64,000 bases of DNA from an uncultured Clostridia bacterium (GTDB lineage: Bacteria; Bacillota; Clostridia; Lachnospirales; CAG-274), in assembly GCA_947632615.1 (NCBI GenBank), contig CANRPW010000005.1, positions 1 through 64,000 on the forward strand. The letters run 5' to 3'. The position numbers and the translations under genes are program-made. The notes beneath the pieces were generated by a model. The model had not been told where the DNA came from and did no database searches. It was given only the letters and a program-made list of their open reading frames with translations. The stretch's first letter is position 1; each line of letters begins with the position of its first letter. Below, in pieces: positions 21,376 through 61,717 of this stretch.

Positions 21376-21541
21376 AGCTGACCGACTTTCGGGGCTGCTC
21401 GGGGCGAGGGAACGGGTGAGCGTGTGGGCGTGACAAAAGGCTCACGGGTGAGCCTTTTGTCACGCCCACACGCTCACCCGTTCCCTCGCCCCGACCCGCG
21501 GGTCGGTCCAAGCCAACCATCTGCGATGGTTGGCTTGGACC
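21376..21541. repeat. Large hairpin element B
   Basis: Tail in reverse orientation at 21376-21399 (GCTGACCGACTTTC...), then a perfect 46-bp core hairpin (21400-21445/21448-21493, 2-base loop), the palindrome GACCCGCGGGTC (21493-21504) and a perfect 16-bp second hairpin (21505-21520/21526-21541). It lies between divergent genes, within the predicted leader of the deacetylase gene, whose ATG is 40 bases further on. Confidence 0.9.
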
Positions 21542-21581
21542 GAGCACACAATTCTTAATCAATACACAAGGAGGTATTTAT

Positions 21582-22392: not shown

Positions 22393-22547
22393 GCCAAACC
22401 CGACTGCGGCACCGCTCGGGGAAGGGTGAGGTCTGCGCTTCGTCAATGGAGCGGACGGGTCCGCTCCATTGACAAAGCGCAGACCTCACCCTTCCCCGAC
22501 CCGCGGGGTGGCATTTTCAAACAGCCTGTGGCTGTTTGAAAATGCCA
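22393..22547. repeat. Large hairpin element C
   Basis: Reverse-oriented tail (22393-22416, containing GACTGCGGC), a 40-bp core hairpin with one C-A mismatch (22417-22456/22459-22498, 2-base loop), linker ACCCGCGGGG and a perfect 18-bp second hairpin (22509-22526/22530-22547, loop TGT). It lies between two plus-strand genes. Confidence 0.9.
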
Positions 22548-22580
22548 CGCAACCTTGTTTATAATAAGGACTGATAATAA

Positions 22581-26731: not shown

Positions 26732-26887
26732 CCCTTCTTACATACCATTGAAAATGGTATGTAAGAAGGGACCGTCGGGGGAGGGACGCTCGGCAGAGGC
26801 AAACAAAAAAGGACAGCGGAGTCTGTCCTTTTTTGTTTGCCTCTGCCGAGCGTCCCTCCCCCGACGGTGCCGCAGGCCGGTAGGCTA
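26732..26887. repeat. Large hairpin element D
   Basis: Second hairpin first (18-bp arms 26732-26749/26753-26770, loop GAA), then a perfect 46-bp core (26771-26816/26823-26868, 6-base loop), then the forward tail GCCGCAGGCCGGTAGGC (about 26870-26886). It sits between converging genes (NUDIX and thiE). The apex GGACAG/CTGTCC with flanking A/T runs resembles elements E1 and E3. Confidence 0.9.
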
Positions 26888-28649: not shown

Positions 28650-29417
28650 CTAATCTCTCAAAAATCCCGTAAGAGGACTTGATGCCTCTGCCTTATATTC
28701 AAGAACTCTGCCAAGCCCCGCAAGATATGCCTTTCTTCCTGCCTCAATAGCAAGCCTGAATGACGTTGCCATAAGCCCCACATCAGAAGCCGTAGCAACA
28801 GCTGTATTTGCCATAATAGCATCAACGCCCATTTCCATAGCCTCGCATGCCTGGGATGGTCTGCCTATACCTGCATCTACGATTATAGGCACATCTATTT
28901 CCTTTACAAGTATTTTTATAAAATCTCTGGTGGAAAGACCCTTATTGCTGCCTATAGGAGCTGCAAGAGGCATAACAGCAGCCGCCCCGGCATTCACCAT
29001 ATCCCTTGCTGCGTTAAGGTCGGGATACATATATGGCATAACAATAAATCCTTCCTTAGCAAGTATCTCGGTAGCCTTTACAGTTTCATAATTATCCGGC
29101 AACAGATATTTGCTGTCGTGTACGACCTCTATTTTTACAAAATCACCGCAGCCAATGGCTCTTGCAAGTCTTGCTATTCTTACTGCCTCCTCAGCATTTC
29201 TTGCTCCCGAGGTATTTGGCAAAAGAGTTATGCCCTCAGGCATATAGTCAAGAATGTTCTCCGAGCCTCCCACATTTGCGCGTCTTAATGCAAGAGTAGC
29301 CATTTCAACACCGCCATTTTTAATTACCTTGTCGGTCATTTCAAGTGAAAATTTACCGGAACCAAGTATAAATCTTGAATTAAATTCGTGTCCGCCTATA
29401 ATAAGCTTGTCATCCAT
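28650..29417 (-). CDS. thiG: Thiazole synthase ThiG
   Basis: 255-residue TIM-barrel enzyme that assembles thiazole phosphate from deoxyxylulose phosphate, dehydroglycine and ThiS thiocarboxylate. The Schiff-base lysine region VKIEVVHD is near residue 94, with [11 protein letters not shown] and [10 protein letters not shown] downstream. GGAGG ribosome site. It lies 17 bases after thiS. Confidence 0.96.
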
Positions 29418-29434
29418 AATAATTTCCTCCTTTA

Positions 29435-29629
29435 TCAGCCGCCACCCATGAAGGTAACGACCTCCATAACGTCCGCCTCTGTCAATGTTATTTCCTTGAA
29501 TTTTTCTCTTGGTATTATTTCATAGTTGAGCTCTACAGCGATCCTATTAATATTATAGTCAAGTCCGCATAAAAAATCATATACAGTCTGCCCTGCCTTA
29601 AGCTCGACCTTCTCGCCGTTTAAGATCAT
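29435..29629 (-). CDS. thiS: Sulfur carrier protein ThiS
   Basis: 64-residue ubiquitin-fold sulfur carrier ending in the required Gly-Gly (FMGGG), activated as adenylate and thiocarboxylate by a ThiF-type enzyme and used by ThiG. The start [13 protein letters not shown] has AGGAGG seven bases upstream; an open frame extending to 29725 runs through promoter and leader and is not coding. No thiF is in this operon, but a ThiF/MoeB-type gene is at 52619. Confidence 0.93.
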
Positions 29630-29653
29630 ATCGCACCTCCTAAAAATAAGCGC

Positions 29654-29682
29654 AAAAAGGACACACCCGCGGTGGTGTGCCC
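29654..29682 (-). terminator. Leader terminator (attenuator) before thiS
   Basis: On the minus strand, stem GGGCACACC/GGTGTGTCC (one G-U pair) with loop ACCGCG, followed by five T, lies between the promoter and the thiS ribosome site. This suggests attenuation. A TPP riboswitch does not fit in the roughly 80-base leader and its signature sequences are missing. Confidence 0.65.
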
Positions 29683-29715
29683 CATTACTTACGATACCTC
29701 TATATGTTTTATATA

Positions 29716-29744
29716 ATAATATCATTTCTGCCCCATTTTGTCAA
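29716..29744 (-). promoter_or_regulatory. Sigma-A promoter of thiSGHE
   Basis: Minus-strand consensus TTGACA (29739-29744), 17-base spacer, TATTAT (29716-29721). The transcript should begin near 29709. Confidence 0.82.
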
Positions 29745-29761
29745 GCAGAAGATAGCGGTTC

Positions 29762-29928
29762 GGGCATGAACAGGTGACGAGTTGACTCTGTCAACTCGTC
29801 ACCTGTTCATGCCCCGTGGGGAAGCCGACAAAAGGGGGACAGCGAAGCTGTCCCCCTTTTGTCGGCTTCCCCCACGGGCGGGCGGCAATAATGCTATCGC
29901 AAAGCGATAGCATTATTGCCGCCCGCCC
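29762..29928. repeat. Hairpin element E1 (three hairpins)
   Basis: First of three tandem copies. Hairpin a: 24-bp arms 29762-29785/29791-29814. Core: 29815-29843/29847-29876 with one bulged C, bounded by CGTGGGG and CCCCCACG. Hairpin c: 25-bp arms 29876-29900/29904-29928, loop AAA. It lies upstream of the thiS promoter. Confidence 0.92.
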
Positions 29929-29948
29929 AACTTCAGCGTTAGCTGTAT

Positions 29949-30120
29949 GGCAGTCGCAGGCAGGGGCAATCTGACAAATGTCAGATTGCCCCTGCCTGCG
30001 ACTGCCCGTGGGGGAGCTCGGCAAAATGGGGACGGCTTCGCCGTCCCCATTTTGCCGAGCTCCCCCACGGGTCAGGCGGTGATGATGTTATCGCAGAGCG
30101 ATAACATCATCACCGCCTGA
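29949..30120. repeat. Hairpin element E2 (three hairpins)
   Basis: Second tandem copy with the same order. Hairpin a: 27-bp arms 29949-29975/29980-30006. Core: perfect 30-bp arms 30007-30036/30040-30069, loop TTC. Hairpin c: perfect 23-bp arms 30072-30094/30098-30120, loop AGA. Compared with E1 and E3, changes in the core and in hairpin c occur on both arms and keep pairing. Confidence 0.92.
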
Positions 30121-30179
30121 GCAAGCCCAAAATATAAGCAATCACCCCTTTCTTAACAGTGAAAATCTTGGCAGGAATA

Positions 30180-30335
30180 GTCAGGTATAATCTGACTATC
30201 GTCAGATTATACCCGACCCGTGGGGTGAAGCCGGCAAAAAGGGGGACAGCTGCGCTGTCCCCCTTTTTGCCGGCTTCACCCCCACGGGTCGGGCGGCGGC
30301 AATGCTATCGCAAAGCGATAGCATTGCCGCCGCCC
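30180..30335. repeat. Hairpin element E3 (three hairpins)
   Basis: Third tandem copy. Hairpin a: 17-bp arms 30180-30196/30201-30217 with one A-C mismatch. Core: 30215-30250/30254-30290 with one bulge, bounded by GACCCGTGGGG and CCCCCACGGGTC. Hairpin c: perfect 21-bp arms 30291-30311/30315-30335, sharing the GCTATCGC-AAA-GCGATAGC apex with E1. About 60 bases of plain sequence separate it from E2. Confidence 0.92.
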
Positions 30336-30342
30336 GGGCAAA

Positions 30343-30366
30343 CCCGACAGGTCAAAGCCTGTCGGG
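30343..30366 (-). terminator. Hairpin at the 3' end of the giant surface protein gene
   Basis: CCCGACAGG/CCTGTCGGG, 6-base loop, 15 bases past the stop codon. On the minus strand it is followed by TTTG only, so it is a weak intrinsic terminator, or the end piece of element E3. Confidence 0.5.
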
Positions 30367-30381
30367 ATAAATTTATAATAC

Positions 30382-33300
30382 TCAGCTTAGTTTATCATCG
30401 ACCAAGGCAAAGATCGTTGCTATTTCTGCTCTGGTCGCTGTTTTCTTAGGAGCAAATGTGCCATCAGGCATACCGCTTATAAGCCCTGTTTTCTGCATAT
30501 AATATACAGCCTCATAAGCCCAGGTGCTTATGTCCTTATCGTCCTTAAACTCAGTGTTATCCTTTTCGTCAAGTTTAACATCTTTTGTCTTAAGATAGTT
30601 ATAGAATATAAGTGCTATCTGCTCACGTGTTATTGCGGTTTCGGGAGCAAATTCTGTATCGGAAATTCCCTTTACAATGCCTTCTTCCGCTGCCCAAGCC
30701 ACATATTCAGCATAATATGCTTTAGGATCGACATCTTTGAATTTATTGTCAGGTGTTCCCTTTGCGTTTTCAAATCTTCCAAGAACTGTTACAAACATTC
30801 CTCTTGTAACAACTCCATTGGGCGCAAACAGCTTGTCGGTAGCTCCTGCAAACCACTTGTTGTCATATGCCTTCTGAACAGCATCATGATACCAAGCTGT
30901 TTTTACAACGTCTGTGAATATTTCAGAAACATCCAAAGTCTTTTCTCCGAAAGATGCTGCAGACTCATCTGCACTATTAGAAGTTTCATCGCCTGTGTTT
31001 TCGTTCTCAACAACAGTTGTGCCCTCCGAAACTATTTCTTTGGTGGTATTTTCGGCAGAGGTTTCTTCTATAACGGAAGAAGAACCGCTGTGTCTGTGTC
31101 CACCACCACCGCCACCGCTGCCGCCTGAAGACGTGCTGTGTGTAGTTGTTTCTGTAGGTGCTTCTGTTGGGCTTTCCGTAGGTGCATCCGTAGTAGCCTC
31201 TGTCGATTCTTCTGTTGGTTTCTCTACAGGAGGATCTATCATTGTAAATAATATTCCTCCGTCAACATCATCTGATGGCATTGACAGTGTCTTAAAGTCA
31301 CTTGAAAGTGTAATTACAGAATCTTTGTCAAGTGTAAGAAGTATCTCTCTTGCGCCCTCGTCAGATGTTACCTTTATGCTGCCAAGTGTTATAACACCGT
31401 TTTCAATGAGGTTTTCATCGGCTACTACAAACATATAAAGCTTGCCTGTTTCTCTGTCATAGTGTATTTCATGAAGAGCGCATCTCTCAGGGTCATTTAA
31501 TATGTCGGTCCACTCTATTTGAACATCTGCCGAGTCCACGGGAGAAATATCAAAGGCCGCCTGGAAGGCAATTATATCGGTTATTGTTTCATCACCTATT
31601 CCCCACTGCATGCCTGCCTTTCCCTTTACCTCATCATCAGGAGTAAATATAAACTGATTTGCAGGTATGTCAGGCTCTTCCTCAGTATTATAGGCTGTTA
31701 TATATGCATCGCCCTCTTCAGAAACGGTATATGACTGCATATCGTCAGAAGCCTCGCCTGCTTCTTCAGCCAAGCCCTCGTCAGATGCTGCATTAACAAC
31801 CTCAGACTCCTGCTCGGTGACAGGCTCTTCTATCGCAGTAGTCTGCGCCTCTGTATTTTCTTCAGATGTATTCTCTGAAATAACCGCTTCAGTGCTTATC
31901 TCGGTAATATTTTCACTTATTTCTTCGGTAGATGCCTCTCCGCCTGTGTCTTCGGGAGGTGCAGCTGATATAACAATGTCCTCAAGGTCTGAAGGCACAT
32001 CAAGATAGAGAGAATTACTTACAAGTCTTTCGCCTTCAAGAGTATGGGCATTATCTACACGATAAAGCTCTGCCTGTACTTTTGCCGGAAGTGAATTATA
32101 GTTGTCATCATCAGGTTCTATCCAATAGATCCAAATGCCATCGTTTACATTACCAAGCTCTCCATTTACAGGTTCTTCTGCAAGTGTTATCTGAGTACCA
32201 TCTATAATATTGCCATTTTCGTCAAGAAGCTTAACAACATTATATGCCGGGTTACCCGTATATTCACCTGTGAATATAATAGAGCCCTCGGGGATGGAGT
32301 CGTTTGTATTTGTGTCGAATACATATTCTGTTTTAAGCTTACCTATACCCGACTCTATAAGGTCTACATTGTCACCTGTAGGACCAAGTATTTCAATGTC
32401 GTTTATAGATGCAGAAGTTCCCCCAAATACTACCTTTACATACGCCGCACTGTAAATGTACATATATCCGGGTTCTTCAGGCTTATTGAAGTAAACGGTG
32501 TCATCACCTGTGAAGCTGCCCGTCTTGGCTTCTGTCCAGTTTGTATTATCTTCACTTACAAATATAGTATAGCTTGCTGCCTCTCCCTTATATTTAAGGG
32601 CAACTACCTGCTCGGTTCCGCCTAAATTAACAGTAAATTCAGCAGCATCCCCGTCAGTCTTGCCTACATAGCCACTGCCGTCGCCCTTGCCTATAATGTT
32701 GGCTATGGCTGAAATATAAGTATCCTCACAATATCCGTTTTCACCATCGGCAACTATATCCTGGTCAGCATCAGATCTCATATTTGTTTCTATGCTCCAG
32801 TCATCTCTGCCAATAGAGCCGTCGTGCCTTACCTTAACAGGTGTAAGCAGAACAGGATTTGTAGCATTAAGAAGCTTATCATAGCCGACTACCTGATATT
32901 GATATACCATATTGTTGCCTGTTGTAATTGTGTCTGTATAAGAAGTCTTATCTGCCGTAACAAAAGCAACTGTCTTGCCGTTTCTTGTTATCTCATAACC
33001 CAACATAGCATCGCCGCCTGTGTTGTTTAATGATATTGTTACCTCATTATCATTTATAATATTGCCGGGATGATCTGTTGTTATATTTGCACTGACAGTC
33101 GTTCCTGTAGGCATAGAAGCTCCGCCCTCAAGTCTGTACTCCCAAGCATTCGGGTTTATATATTGTATTTTCTTTGTTTCCTTATCAAACTGAGAGGTAT
33201 ATATCCTTGTGTCTTCTGTAGGAGCAAAACCCCAAGCCTCAAAGAAATCCGTAAGATCCTTCTGTGCTGCTGCACTTGCAAGTCGTATAAGATTGTCTAT

Positions 33301-36300
33301 AGGATAGTCTGTAAGTGTAAGAGCTGTTTCTCCCGGAGCAGAAGACGGATCTCTTGAATAGCTGTCCATACGCGCAAAGAAAAGATTTTCTAACCGGTCT
33401 TCTGCTGACTCATATGTCTTAAAATCATAATATTTGTCATAGAACATATGAAGCTGCAAATACATAGCAAGAGCCGTTGCCGGGTCGAGAGTCTGTCCCG
33501 TTACTCCCTTTACAACTGCATCATATACCTTATTATAGTCTGAACGGTTATAATCCTGGGTCGAAAGGGTTGCAAAAACATTGTTTGTTATTTCGGCTTT
33601 TACATAGTTCTTGTTGTTTATAACATGACCTATTTCATGAGCTATACCCCAGCCTGTAAGTTGACCTGATATCTTTTTACCGTTTTCATCAGCCTCTACG
33701 GGGGTAATATTCATAAGCTCAGGCACGCTGCCGTACTCAATACCTATATGCTTGCCGCCGGCATACATAAATGCTCCTGCAAACATTTTATGATAGCGGA
33801 TGTTGAGCCTTTGCTTAGGATATCTGTTTTTGCTGTCGCTTTCCGCATCCTTATTAAGTCCTTTAAATGTATAGAACAGGTCTATCTCCTGCTCCATAGC
33901 CTTAATGGCGTTTTCAAGCTTTTCTGCTCCACCGTTGCCTATTCCTTCATATATCTGTGTAGCCGGAACCGAATACATCATATTGTTCATAACTATTTCG
34001 GTATAGTCTGCTATACAGCTTTCTCCGTATGCAACGCTGCCATGGTCTGCATTGTGCTTGTCTTTGATTGTAGGAACATACTCATTAAGCTCTGCCATAT
34101 AATTTTGTATTGCATGAGTACGTTCTTGTCCCTCTTTACCTGCTACATTGAGCACAGGTATTTTTTCGCCGCCGCTTACTCTCACGCTGTACTCACGGGT
34201 ATTAGCGCCTCCGCTCCACTCTACATACAGTGCGCCGCCATTCTCGGTCTCTCCTGAGGTGGCAATGTAAGGGATCTGTATTTCATTTCTGCCTATTTTG
34301 AGATTTCCGCAGTTTTGATACCATTTTGTTGACTCGCCGTGATTTTGTGTGGCTATAAGGTTGACGTCTGTTCTTGTTCCTTCAGCTTCATAGGGGCTTC
34401 CAAGATAAACAACTAACTTCTCCCCTGCCTTAGCTACAACACCCAGAGGCTGGAAGTTTGTAAGACTCATTGCAAAGTCAATGTTTCCGTCAGCTTTTGG
34501 AGTAATTCCCGTATCTACTATAACTATGTCTTCAAGTGCCTGTGTATTAAGAAGCTCTCTTGCATATTCAAGCTCTCTCTTTAAAATGTCATAATCGGGA
34601 TGAAGCTCTCCGCAGGCAGGGTCAGGCTCTTCAAGCTCATCTTCAAGCTTTTTAATATCATCTTCGCCTACTTCGCTTCTGAGCTTAAGATGCATATTGT
34701 CTTCATAAAGAGCATCTATTCTGTCTGCAATATCATCATAATTATAGAACTTCATTTCAGAAACGGATGCCAGACGATTATTGCCGCCCACAGCTATACA
34801 AAGCTGGAAGGTATTTGAGGTTATAGGCTCGTCAACCGTTACCGAATAATATATGCCGCCCGCTTTATCCATTCTTCTTGAAAGAGAAGCCTTTGGCGCT
34901 TTTACCATTTCTCCTGTCGCAGAATCTTTATAGCGTATGGTTGCATCGGTATAATAATAAGGCTGGCTTGCGCTGGGCGCAAAGCAAATTGTATCTATTT
35001 TATATTCACGGTCAAGTGTAACTATAGGAAGGGCATAGTTGGTGTAATGATAGCCCGTGTCCCAGTCGTCCTCAACAGCATAAGTTGCCTGAGAATTATC
35101 TACAACAATGTAGTTTTCTCCCACATACGAATAAAGACCGTTAGGAAGCTCCTCAGAAACAACATGATTTGTCAGCTGTCCTACGCCGTTTGAAGTATTT
35201 ATAAGCATATATTCAGGCATTACAACACCCTGAGATGCAAGGACCTTAGCTGTATTTACAGGTGAATTGTTACTCATGCCAAATTCATTATGGCCTACAA
35301 TATATATCTCATATGTGGCTTCTGGCACAAGATTAGGTATGAGATAGCTGTTTGTAGTGAGGTCAGGCACTTCGATATAGTTATCTGCGCCCTGTTGACG
35401 ATAGAACAGAGAATATTTCTGAGTATCTCTCATGTTCTTCCATGTTACTTTTATAGACTCTGTAAGTCCCGTTGCATTTATGCCTTCAGGCACAGGCGGA
35501 ACTCCATTGGGTTTCAATATAACAACGTAAGGCTCGGAATAAGGACTCTTCCAATCTCCGCTTACAGAGCGTACCTTAACGGTATAAGGCACATAGGTTG
35601 AAAGGTCGGCTCCTGCGAGATCTATAACAGAGGCTTTATTTGTCTTTGTATTTATCTTAGCCTCACTGCCGTTAGAGCTTACAGAAACCTCATATCCGTC
35701 AACATTTGTCTGATTATCCCACGTTATATCAAAAGCGGGATATAAGCCCCAAGCAGTCTGAGTCCAGCCGCTTATGGTGGGAATATTAAGCTCCGGCTCG
35801 CCTATACGGCTTTCCATATTGTTAAGGAACTCAACCTTGGCAATATCAACAAGCTTTGTGCTGGAGCCTGTTACCTTTATAGTTACCTTCTTAATGGCTA
35901 TCTTGCTGCCTATGTCAATAACTATAGTACCGTCGCTTTCCGTTTTAGCCTTCTGACTTCCGGCGATAGGCTTTATACTATTTAACGAAGCTGCACCGGC
36001 GATAAGGCTTAGGCCTCCTGAATAAGCCCTTATAACGGACGAATCGCCTATGGTATAGTCATAAGTATTGCCATCCTCGTCCTCTACAGTGACCGTGCCC
36101 CTTTCAATAAGGTTTGCAGAGCCTGACGGTGGTCTGATAACAATTCCGTCTATTTTCTGCTCCTCGGGAAGAGCTGCATCAGGGTCAAGGTCTGTTGGGT
36201 CGGAAATATTAAGTGCAATCTCTACGGGGTTTTCCTCAGAAATAGCCCCACTGTTTGCAGGAGCAAGCTGTACAACAGCATCAAGGCTGCCCATAATGTC

Positions 36301-36993
36301 TTCAATATTACCTATTACTTCTGTGCCTTCTATAGCTTCTATAGCCACATTTTCAGCGGAAACAAGGCTAAGAGGTGTTGCCTTTACAGATTTTCCGTAG
36401 TTAAGGGATATATAAGCCAAATCGGCAATATTTACTAATTTATCATTGTTAAGATCAAGAGTGAGATCGTTGCTGCCGGCTTCAATGGCCTGCATAAGTA
36501 TCCCGGCATCTGCCTCGTCGACCACTCCGCTGCCGTCAACATCGCCTATGGGAATAACACCGTAAACATCCGAGCCTATAATGGTATTTTTCTCCTTACT
36601 GTTGTTAAGCTCTATCTGTGTAGTGCTTCCCTTTTGAATATCAATTTGCTGATCGTATACTGCATAGCCCTCAGCAGTCACCGAAAGATCATATTTGCCT
36701 ACGGGTATGTTCTTTAAAATTCCCGAAGCAAGTGTGCCCTTTTCATTACTGATGAGTTCCATGCTCTGAGTGTTGCTGCTGTTATCTGCCGATGTAAGTT
36801 TAGCCGCAAAAGCATCTCCCGGCGCAGGCAGATCAAGATCAATATCAAGCTCAAAGCTGCCAACTTCGGAAATACTTATAGGCATTATGCCATATCCTGC
36901 AGAAACAACAGATGTGAAAGCGTTCTGTGACAAAAATGCAGTCGCAAGCGCTATGGCGAGTGCCTTTTTGCCAACTTTTAGATTACTTTTCAT
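30382..36993 (-). CDS. Giant cell-surface M60-like metallopeptidase with dockerin and SLH domains
   Basis: 2203 residues. Order: signal peptide (about 1-33); a carboxypeptidase-regulatory-like beta unit; dockerin type I repeats (about 150-205, DVDGSGVVDEAD and LDLNNDKLVNIAD); a discoidin-like region; two fibronectin III-like units (about 405-590); a second sugar-binding-like region; the peptidase with HEIGH at 1119-1123 and a Glu about 10 residues on, the M60/enhancin gluzincin pattern; a further F5/8C-like unit; a Glu/Thr-rich linker; a cohesin-like beta domain (about 1780-1920); a Gly/Ser/His linker; three SLH domains (about 2020-2203). M60 enzymes cleave mucin-type glycoproteins; SLH domains bind the wall. 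ATG 36993 has AAGGAG; an in-frame TTG 18 bases upstream is not the start. Boundaries are estimates. Confidence 0.85.
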   Translation of the reverse strand: MKSNLKVGKKALAIALATAFLSQNAFTSVVSAGYGIMPISISEVGSFELDIDLDLPAPGDAFAAKLTSADNSSNTQSMELISNEKGTLASGILKNIPVGKYDLSVTAEGYAVYDQQIDIQKGSTTQIELNNSKEKNTIIGSDVYGVIPIGDVDGSGVVDEADAGILMQAIEAGSNDLTLDLNNDKLVNIADLAYISLNYGKSVKATPLSLVSAENVAIEAIEGTEVIGNIEDIMGSLDAVVQLAPANSGAISEENPVEIALNISDPTDLDPDAALPEEQKIDGIVIRPPSGSANLIERGTVTVEDEDGNTYDYTIGDSSVIRAYSGGLSLIAGAASLNSIKPIAGSQKAKTESDGTIVIDIGSKIAIKKVTIKVTGSSTKLVDIAKVEFLNNMESRIGEPELNIPTISGWTQTAWGLYPAFDITWDNQTNVDGYEVSVSSNGSEAKINTKTNKASVIDLAGADLSTYVPYTVKVRSVSGDWKSPYSEPYVVILKPNGVPPVPEGINATGLTESIKVTWKNMRDTQKYSLFYRQQGADNYIEVPDLTTNSYLIPNLVPEATYEIYIVGHNEFGMSNNSPVNTAKVLASQGVVMPEYMLINTSNGVGQLTNHVVSEELPNGLYSYVGENYIVVDNSQATYAVEDDWDTGYHYTNYALPIVTLDREYKIDTICFAPSASQPYYYTDATIRYKDSATGEMVKAPKASLSRRMDKAGGIYYSVTVDEPITSNTFQLCIAVGGNNRLASVSEMKFYNYDDIADRIDALYEDNMHLKLRSEVGEDDIKKLEDELEEPDPACGELHPDYDILKRELEYARELLNTQALEDIVIVDTGITPKADGNIDFAMSLTNFQPLGVVAKAGEKLVVYLGSPYEAEGTRTDVNLIATQNHGESTKWYQNCGNLKIGRNEIQIPYIATSGETENGGALYVEWSGGANTREYSVRVSGGEKIPVLNVAGKEGQERTHAIQNYMAELNEYVPTIKDKHNADHGSVAYGESCIADYTEIVMNNMMYSVPATQIYEGIGNGGAEKLENAIKAMEQEIDLFYTFKGLNKDAESDSKNRYPKQRLNIRYHKMFAGAFMYAGGKHIGIEYGSVPELMNITPVEADENGKKISGQLTGWGIAHEIGHVINNKNYVKAEITNNVFATLSTQDYNRSDYNKVYDAVVKGVTGQTLDPATALAMYLQLHMFYDKYYDFKTYESAEDRLENLFFARMDSYSRDPSSAPGETALTLTDYPIDNLIRLASAAAQKDLTDFFEAWGFAPTEDTRIYTSQFDKETKKIQYINPNAWEYRLEGGASMPTGTTVSANITTDHPGNIINDNEVTISLNNTGGDAMLGYEITRNGKTVAFVTADKTSYTDTITTGNNMVYQYQVVGYDKLLNATNPVLLTPVKVRHDGSIGRDDWSIETNMRSDADQDIVADGENGYCEDTYISAIANIIGKGDGSGYVGKTDGDAAEFTVNLGGTEQVVALKYKGEAASYTIFVSEDNTNWTEAKTGSFTGDDTVYFNKPEEPGYMYIYSAAYVKVVFGGTSASINDIEILGPTGDNVDLIESGIGKLKTEYVFDTNTNDSIPEGSIIFTGEYTGNPAYNVVKLLDENGNIIDGTQITLAEEPVNGELGNVNDGIWIYWIEPDDDNYNSLPAKVQAELYRVDNAHTLEGERLVSNSLYLDVPSDLEDIVISAAPPEDTGGEASTEEISENITEISTEAVISENTSEENTEAQTTAIEEPVTEQESEVVNAASDEGLAEEAGEASDDMQSYTVSEEGDAYITAYNTEEEPDIPANQFIFTPDDEVKGKAGMQWGIGDETITDIIAFQAAFDISPVDSADVQIEWTDILNDPERCALHEIHYDRETGKLYMFVVADENLIENGVITLGSIKVTSDEGAREILLTLDKDSVITLSSDFKTLSMPSDDVDGGILFTMIDPPVEKPTEESTEATTDAPTESPTEAPTETTTHSTSSGGSGGGGGGHRHSGSSSVIEETSAENTTKEIVSEGTTVVENENTGDETSNSADESAASFGEKTLDVSEIFTDVVKTAWYHDAVQKAYDNKWFAGATDKLFAPNGVVTRGMFVTVLGRFENAKGTPDNKFKDVDPKAYYAEYVAWAAEEGIVKGISDTEFAPETAITREQIALIFYNYLKTKDVKLDEKDNTEFKDDKDISTWAYEAVYYMQKTGLISGMPDGTFAPKKTATRAEIATIFALVDDKLS

Positions 36994-37047
36994 TTCCCTC
37001 GCTCCTTTCAAGGGGGGAACCCTTAATAAAAAATTTTATATAGATTT

Positions 37048-37135: not shown

Positions 37136-37281
37136 AGCGTAACTCTGCTCAGACCGCTTGGCGGTCTGAACAGAGTTACGCTGCGGGGGCGGACGGGGCG
37201 TGGGAAGCGGAAGGGGCGACTTCGCGCCCCTTCCGCTTCCCACGCCCCGTCCGCCCCCGCAGCTACGCAGTCTGGTCAGCT
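37136..37281. repeat. Large hairpin element F
   Basis: Second hairpin (22-bp arms 37136-37157/37161-37182, one C-A mismatch, loop TTG), perfect 36-bp core (37183-37218/37225-37260, 6-base loop) and forward tail ACGCAGTCTGGTCAGC (about 37265-37280). It lies in the divergent space between two promoters and would be in neither transcript. Confidence 0.92.
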
Positions 37282-38562: not shown

Positions 38563-38840
38563 CACAAAAAACGCTGTTTGGCTCTGCCAAACAGCGTTTT
38601 TTGTGCCCTCGCGGGCGGACCGGGTCAGGGGGAAAAGGGGCGGCTTTGCCGCCCCTTTTCCCCCTGACCCGGTCCGCCCGCGAGGGCACGCCCCGCCCAG
38701 CCCCAACAAGCCCCGCCCGAAACGCCTTTAGGCGTTTCGGGCGGGGCTTGTTGGGGCTGGGCGGGGCGGCGAGGGGCGAAAAGCAGCGGCTCCTACGTCG
38801 CCGCTGCTTTTCGCCCCTCGCTTAAGCCGCTGTGGTTACC
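38563..38840. repeat. Compound hairpin element G (four hairpins)
   Basis: Four adjacent perfect or near-perfect hairpins: a, 19 bp (38563-38581/38587-38605); b, 39 bp (38606-38644/38648-38686); c, 39 bp (38689-38727/38730-38768), with the C-rich arm first, unlike other cores; d, 22 bp (38769-38790/38800-38821). The tail GCCGCTGTGGTTACC (about 38826-38840) follows. Hairpin a has a T-rich 3' arm and begins 2 bases after the rng stop, so it may terminate rng. Converging genes flank the element. Confidence 0.92.
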
Positions 38841-52448: not shown

Positions 52449-52610
52449 AACCAAACCGACCAACCAGCAAGGGGCGAGGCGCGCGGGGAGCAAGCGAGGC
52501 AGAGCAAAGGGCGGCGTATGCCGCCCTTTGCTCTGCCTCGCTTGCTCCCCGCGCGCCTCGCCCCTGCGGCGTCGCCCAAAATAATCGATTTTCAATCGAT
52601 TTTTTGGGCG
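52449..52610. repeat. Large hairpin element H
   Basis: Reverse-oriented tail (52449-52469; reverse complement contains GCTGGTTGGTCGGTT), a perfect 46-bp core (52470-52515/52520-52565, loop GTAT), linker GCGGCGT and a second hairpin (52573-52590/52594-52610, one bulged T). It lies between converging comEC and thiF-like genes. Confidence 0.9.
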
Positions 52611-54758: not shown

Positions 54759-54922
54759 GCCCCACCCCAAGCTCCGCCGTAAAGGCGGAGTCTTGGGGTG
54801 GGGCCGCGGGGCAGGGGCGGAGAACGGCAGGAGGAAAGAAGCCAAGAAAGCCCAAGGGCTTCCTTGGCTTCTTTCCTCCTGCCGTTCTCCGCCCCTGCCC
54901 CGCTGCCGCAGTTTGGTCAGCT
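54759..54922. repeat. Large hairpin element I, directly upstream of but
   Basis: Second hairpin (54759-54778/54784-54804, one bulge), a 48-bp core with one A-C mismatch (54806-54853/54856-54903, loop AA) and forward tail GCCGCAGTTTGGTCAGC (54905-54921). It fills the gap between the Lon-like gene and but, both on the minus strand. No convincing promoter was found between it and but. Confidence 0.92.
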
Positions 54923-61479: not shown

Positions 61480-61650
61480 AAGGTCAGACCGACCCGGCCA
61501 CGGAGCCGCGGGGCGCAGGGCAGGCAGTCAGCATACATACAGCGGCGTATGCCGCTGTATGTATGCTGACTGCCTGCCCTGCGCCCCGCGCCCCCGCCCC
61601 CTCCCTGTCTGAAACCACATTCGCGGTTTAAGGCAGGGAGGGGGCGGGGG
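61480..61650. repeat. Large hairpin element J
   Basis: Reverse-oriented tail (61480-61506, GGTCAGACCGACCC...), a perfect 40-bp core (61507-61546/61551-61590, loop GTAT) and a second, less perfect hairpin (61591-61617/61623-61650). The core apex AGCGGC-GTAT-GCCGCT is like that of element H. It lies in the divergent space between the MBOAT and potA genes. Confidence 0.9.
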
Positions 61651-61717
61651 CAATCGCACTTTTTTTAGAGGCTGAAATTATTATAAAAATCGGGCGTTTG
61701 CAAATAAGGAGGCTAAA

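Follow-up and report, generated by a model that had tools for sequence, protein, structure and literature searches.

The window, i.e., the whole stretch of 64,000 nucleotides that was analysed, harbours at positions 29762-30336 an array of nine hairpins, which is organised in three tandem units (E1, E2 and E3, with spacings of 194 and 217), each comprising a hairpin a, a core and a hairpin c. The stems of the array are perfect over 13-32 bp and are closed by loops of 2-4 nt. The array is situated between the stop codon of a surface protein gene and a promoter-like site of the thiS operon, and this region comprises the following features:

29716 to 29744, minus strand: promoter-like TTGACA-17-TATTAT for the thiS operon, directly beyond the array
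29762 to 29814: E1 hairpin a, 25-bp perfect stem, loop TCT
29811 to 29879, including a slipped foot: E1 core, 26-bp perfect stem at 29818-29872, loop GAA, apex AAAAGGGGGACAGC/GCTGTCCCCCTTTT
29876 to 29928: E1 hairpin c, 25-bp perfect stem, apex GCTATCGC, loop AAA
29949 to 30006: E2 hairpin a, 28-bp perfect stem
30005 to 30071: E2 core, 32-bp perfect stem, loop TTC, the reverse complement of the E1 core loop
30072 to 30120: E2 hairpin c, 23-bp perfect stem, apex GTTATCGC, loop AGA
30180 to 30217: E3 hairpin a, 17 pairs with one A/C mismatch
30212 to 30293, including a foot with a 1-nt G-run slip: E3 core, 29-bp perfect stem at 30222-30282, loop TGC
30290 to 30336: E3 hairpin c, 22-bp perfect stem, apex GCTATCGC
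30382 to 37011, minus strand: surface protein gene of 2,209 amino acids (three SLH, peptidase M60, fn3), stop codon 45 nt from the array

The three tandem units had been placed at 29762-30335 by the initial annotation; they are present, and the apices quoted there for the cores and the c hairpins proved correct. The proposed sharing of foot bases between adjacent hairpins, which may bring them into competition, is likewise real, with slightly shifted coordinates (30005-30006 in E2 and 30212-30217 in E3), and further shared foot bases are located at 29811-29814, 29876-29879 and 30290-30293. As stated there, the two arms change jointly in the cores and c hairpins that were compared: the core pairs E1/E2, E2/E3 and E1/E3 display 4, 5 and 1 two-sided changes, respectively, and no one-sided change. 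The joint change does not extend to the few breaks in the mirror matching of the array, namely the slips in G/C-run length that affect the foot of the E1 core (GCCCCGTGGGG vs GCCCGTGGGGG) and that of the E3 core, and the single A/C mismatch in E3 a. Between units, the a hairpins agree in the apex alone (..TGAC). Within the window, 25 hairpins reach a stem score of at least 14, whereas 30 local Markov shuffles gave 0.03 on average, and all nine hairpins of the array form in the RNA fold predicted for this region (z = -42). No Rfam family matched the window at gathering threshold, sub-threshold hits being generic hairpin models.

A scan of 29400-30600 for canonical terminators found none, because the stems of the array run through the T-tracts. 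The array sits where read-through from the surface protein gene into the thiS operon would need stopping, and no other terminator-like site was found there. The thiS loci of the sister species and of other relatives are devoid of the array. Ahead of thiS, the leader GGTATCGTAAGTAATGGGGCACACCACCGCGGGTGTGTCCTTTTTG (29643-29700, minus strand) shows almost no variation among seven genomes of the genus and matches no Rfam family; with its terminator-like hairpin, it is a candidate for a regulatory leader.

E1-E3 belong to a family of intergenic palindromic elements that is specific to the lineage and numbers several hundred. The initial annotation missed both this genome-wide family and the bidirectional-terminator form of the core apex. 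The family is found in two species of the genus, represented by the source genome of the window (G000) and one sister species (G005, which agrees in contig numbers and match positions with the rabbit-gut MAG Lapin-023__bin39), both of which are known here from assemblies alone. In 833 kb of contig stretches, some of them centred on hits, an ungapped hairpin finder detected 219 hairpins, 194 of which are perfect, with stems of up to 53 bp and loops of mostly 2-3 nt; mismatches amount to 31 among 6,875 stem pairs (~0.45%). Extrapolation to the whole genome yields a total of ~400-600 hairpins: the 400 kb of stretches that were not chosen by hits hold 67, corresponding to ~400 in 2.42 Mb, and hit-centred stretches would extrapolate to more. 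Bulged stems are rare (3/239), and a loose scan for decayed hairpins added few degenerate stems and uncovered no decayed class.

The observed anatomy of the elements is recurrent. In the common two-hairpin form, the tail GCCGACC..CTGCGG precedes a large hairpin P, whose 5' arm is purine-rich; a CCCGCGGG-like junction then leads to the small hairpin Y, which ends in AAACCGCC and is followed by GCAA. The three-hairpin form (E type) reads, from the c side, TTGCC, a hairpin with a TATCGC apex, a core with a AAAAGGGGRCRGC apex and a third hairpin. Tandem copies of this form exist at other loci as well, and G005 has it at two syntenic sites, which adjoin the same epimerase-like and AzlD-like genes (names judged from the protein start only). 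Read from Y to P, the loops of Y are mostly GNA (20 vs 4 TNC, p = 0.0015); cGNAg loops are unusually stable in DNA. The sense of P-Y relative to genes is not consistent, with 10 elements in the same and 15 in the opposite direction in codirectional intergenes. Other family members in the window are:

21399 to 21543: P-Y two-hairpin element (stems of 47 and 19 bp) with a G005 orthologue that shows mirrored changes
22416 to 22548: P-Y element with a G005 orthologue, the P stem showing 9 two-sided changes and no one-sided change
26732 to 26868: P-Y element with a G005 orthologue, flanked by convergent genes, apex AAAAAAGGACAG/CTGTCCTTTTTT
37136 to 37263: P-Y element upstream of the surface protein gene
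38563 to 38821: four-hairpin cluster (20-42 bp), one hairpin with the recurrent 9-nt loop TCCTACGTC
52470 to 52565: 46-bp perfect family hairpin
54806 to 54903: 48-bp hairpin with one mismatch
61507 to 61651: P-Y element with 40- and 27-bp stems

The 9-nt loop TCCTACGTC marks a hairpin subfamily and is kept on different stems in both species (38769-38821 of the window; stretch L076, 1303-1355; stretch L172, 6578-6620).

Short stretches sampled from the remaining seven genomes of the genus and from four further genera contained no such long GC-rich hairpin, and 46 other genomes of the taxonomic family lack the apex pattern. A wide taxonomic spread, as might be read from the matches of the Y apex pattern in many genomes, was rejected: among the 33 matched loci scanned, long perfect hairpins occurred in G005 loci only, and the matches outside G005 are isolated short ones, with none in viral contigs.

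Family hairpins appear to break or fold back short-read assemblies. Contig C1 of G005 (131,780 bases) is a perfect fold-back palindrome turning at a midpoint hairpin near 65,890 (L115, 5889), which is an assembly artefact caused by family hairpins, and some G005 counts are therefore doubled. Several contigs of G000 start or end in family hairpins (window, 1-62; L070, 17233-17296; L079, 1-43; L085, 3-56). The fold-back of C1 demonstrates that the hairpins do disturb assembly, but the notion that the elements themselves are products of assembly or amplification is scarcely credible, since the same elements occupy syntenic sites in two independent assemblies, where they differ in sequence, and since their flanking motifs are conserved and their location is non-random.

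From the loop outward, P hairpins and cores feature a G-rich segment of ~9 bp, beyond which the 5' arm turns A-rich (peak 0.55 at 11-12 bp) and the 3' arm accordingly carries a T-tract, and the cores of E1-E3 show the succession of A-tract, GC stem and T-tract by inspection. A first run of at least three A residues starts 6-12 bp from the loop in 77/148 P/core hairpins, compared with 10.9 +/- 2.7 when the arms are shuffled; about half of the P hairpins lack such a run at the expected distance. Judged by its sequence, the core is a GC apex of 8-10 bp flanked by an A-tract (5') and a T-tract (3'), i.e., it has the form of a bidirectional intrinsic terminator, which is displayed by about half of the large hairpins. 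With respect to the observed position, hairpins are present in 32/73 convergent, 31/509 codirectional (OR 12, p = 9e-16) and 12/69 divergent intergenes according to ORF-based, approximate gene calls. The presence of elements in divergent intergenes, which need no terminator, counts against a terminator role. One or more A-tract hairpins occur in 35/41 hairpin-bearing convergent intergenes vs 33/57 others (p = 0.004), and separate U-tract terminators tend to be fewer in element-bearing convergent regions (20/64 vs 38/82, p = 0.09, a trend only).

From this form and position we infer that the family cores may terminate transcription. In such a mechanism, the apex of P or of the core would act as a terminator inside a much longer GC-rich outer stem, flanked by the smaller hairpins Y, a and c. 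The elements would end transcription arriving from either side, and the E1-E3 array would insulate the promoter of the thiS operon from the surface protein gene. Were the inner terminator functional, transcription would seldom reach the outer 3' arm, and the long outer stem would thus be left unexplained by termination. Known bidirectional Rho-independent terminators (PMC1852404) similarly comprise an A-tract, a short GC hairpin and a T-tract, are symmetric and are enriched between convergent genes. In contrast, the elements described here attain a total of 26-53 bp through their outer stems, form arrays with other hairpins, possess conserved flanking motifs and are putative terminators. The recurrent hairpin apices between convergent genes also resemble a case described in the same study (PMC1852404), which would suggest inverted pairs of DNA-uptake signals serving as terminators, as in Neisseria. 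For the present family this is very improbable, since several variable apices occur instead of one word of 9-11 nt and the stems are far longer.

Three loci carry an element in G000 while the syntenic site in G005 is empty, and therefore the elements come and go as units. These filled and empty sites, the recurrent layout in many copies (tail GCCGACC..CTGCGG, P, CCCGCGGG, Y and GCAA) and the limitation to two species of the genus would be expected of a non-autonomous mobile family, REP/BIME- or MITE-like, whose folded DNA is recognised by a transposase. Such a nature is somewhat unlikely in view of several findings. Near-identical dispersed copies are lacking, the best stems being about 0.9 identical, and REP tags at the palindrome foot are confined to a few of the 219 hairpins (GTAG 6, CGTC 5). 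The sole Y1 transposase genes of G000 are two IS200-like copies with a stop in frame, and a Y1/RAYT transposase with matching ends was rejected as a candidate because the ends of both copies differ from those of the elements. Moreover, a further genome of the comparison (G008) has Y1 genes yet shows no hairpins in the 40 kb sampled, and a transposase linked to the elements was not found. REP/BIME/REPIN and other stem-loop repeats (PMC3733652, PMC2267715) likewise number in the hundreds, are extragenic, often lie downstream of or between convergent genes and form composite arrays. The present family differs from them in that it is devoid of a GTAG/CGTC tag and of a linked RAYT, as far as found, and in that its stems are long, perfect and variable in sequence. 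The two IS200-like copies of G000 (L009, C15:41073; L010, C26:17538) are identical, and their transposase frames carry the same in-frame TAG.

The initial annotation had suggested a covariation check on more copies. For this purpose, 20 cores of both species were aligned without regard to structure and evaluated by a covariation score other than that of R-scape, against shuffling within columns and slid partners as controls. Two-sided changes were observed at 21/31 predicted pairs of the 20 aligned cores, and covariation exceeded both controls, with a score of 0.428 vs 0.144 +/- 0.013 for shuffled columns and at most 0.120 for slid partners. Orthologous hairpins of G000 and G005 (ten hairpin comparisons, two of which involve the same G005 hairpin) differ by 45 two-sided and 0 one-sided substitutions plus mirrored indels, and tandem copies by 86 two-sided vs 4 one-sided changes, the indels again being mirrored; these counts refer to hairpins from an ungapped search, and the alignments of the low-complexity, purine-rich arms are uncertain in places. 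Related copies also carry loops in both orientations, as exemplified by GAA in E1 and TTC in E2 as well as by TT and AA in stretch L085. The mismatches that remain in isolated P-Y elements of G000 and G005 show a strand bias (A/C 16 vs G/T 4 when read from Y to P, p = 0.012).

As to the observed rates, four-fold degenerate sites are 44.5% identical between G000 and G005, which indicates an old split and elements under some constraint, the arms at orthologous loci being 78-93% identical in aligned columns. The apex is better conserved between the species than the outer stem (p = 0.007). Three tandem duplications have flanks that can be aligned, one of them in part, and their divergence in arms vs flanks was 0.10 vs 0.22 (the partly alignable case), 0.20 vs 0.18 and 0.21 vs 0.11; overall, the arm rate approximates the flank rate in these three duplications only.

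Selection for the fold alone, be it of RNA or DNA, implies that broken pairs are later compensated one by one. It would account for the strong covariation, for the higher conservation of the apex relative to the outer stem and for the constraint on orthologous arms, which are 78-93% identical vs 45% at four-fold sites. However, stepwise compensation would predict arms evolving much more slowly than flanks, as the crossing of fitness valleys should slow them, along with frequent one-sided G-U intermediates, and neither is seen. One-sided intermediates are almost absent (0/45 and 4/90), the excess of A/C over G/T mismatches in the orientation of the GNA loops argues against G-U as a tolerated intermediate on that strand, multi-base indels are mirrored and tandem arms diverge at flank speed. 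Hence, fold selection as the sole cause is rather improbable. The initial annotation regarded the joint change of both arms as direct evidence of selection for, or gene conversion preserving, the fold. Its copying option fits better, while the covariation is not direct evidence of selection, because mismatches are rare, G-U pairs are not specially tolerated, indels are mirrored and the arm rate of tandem copies approximates the flank rate.

Under template switching, block-wise mirrored changes are expected, with loop inversion as a described signature (PMC8794818). Putative arm-to-arm copying by template switching fits the tandem-copy data better than stepwise compensation under selection, and we infer the following course of events. 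The palindrome would become single-stranded during replication, whereupon the nascent arm may snap back or switch template and copy the other arm. Quasipalindrome correction or template-switch mutation of this kind would keep the arms complementary: a change in one arm would be either erased or passed to the other arm, and whole blocks and indels would be mirrored. Selection for the structure probably acts alongside copying, though mirroring does not require it. Loss of the palindrome nuclease SbcCD was rejected as a cause, SbcD being present in both hairpin-bearing genomes.

Taken together, the reading that we favour, if by a slight inclination, is that of lineage-specific, giant bidirectional-terminator-like palindromes whose arms evolve in concert, with termination and copying as their presumed activities. 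A more far-reaching scenario holds that unusually active arm-copying in this lineage turned ordinary terminators into a genome-wide class of self-correcting palindromes, which are seeded at the apex, grow outward and are free in sequence, pairing never being lost; this scenario we consider unlikely. If true, such self-correcting palindromes would represent structure that is inherited without sequence.

Hairpins corrected by template switching or quasipalindrome mechanisms (PMC8794818, PMC3820800) share with the present elements perfect stems, multi-base mirrored changes and loops in both orientations. They were described as single events in rRNA or reporter genes, whereas here a whole dispersed intergenic family of one bacterial lineage is concerned. 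The coding palindromes of Nematomorpha mitochondria (PMC6649704) similarly comprise many long perfect inverted repeats with arms evolving in concert and no decaying class; unlike these, the present elements are extragenic and bacterial and possess recurrent apices and a defined multi-hairpin layout.

The origin of long RNA stems and the upkeep of their perfect pairing are an old puzzle, and two-sided changes are usually taken as proof of structural selection. The family constitutes a natural set of several hundred palindromes whose unpaired flanks serve as internal controls and whose mirrored changes proceed at approximately neutral pace. It would thereby allow the rate of copying to be measured, and it carries the caution that covariation by itself can arise from mutation.
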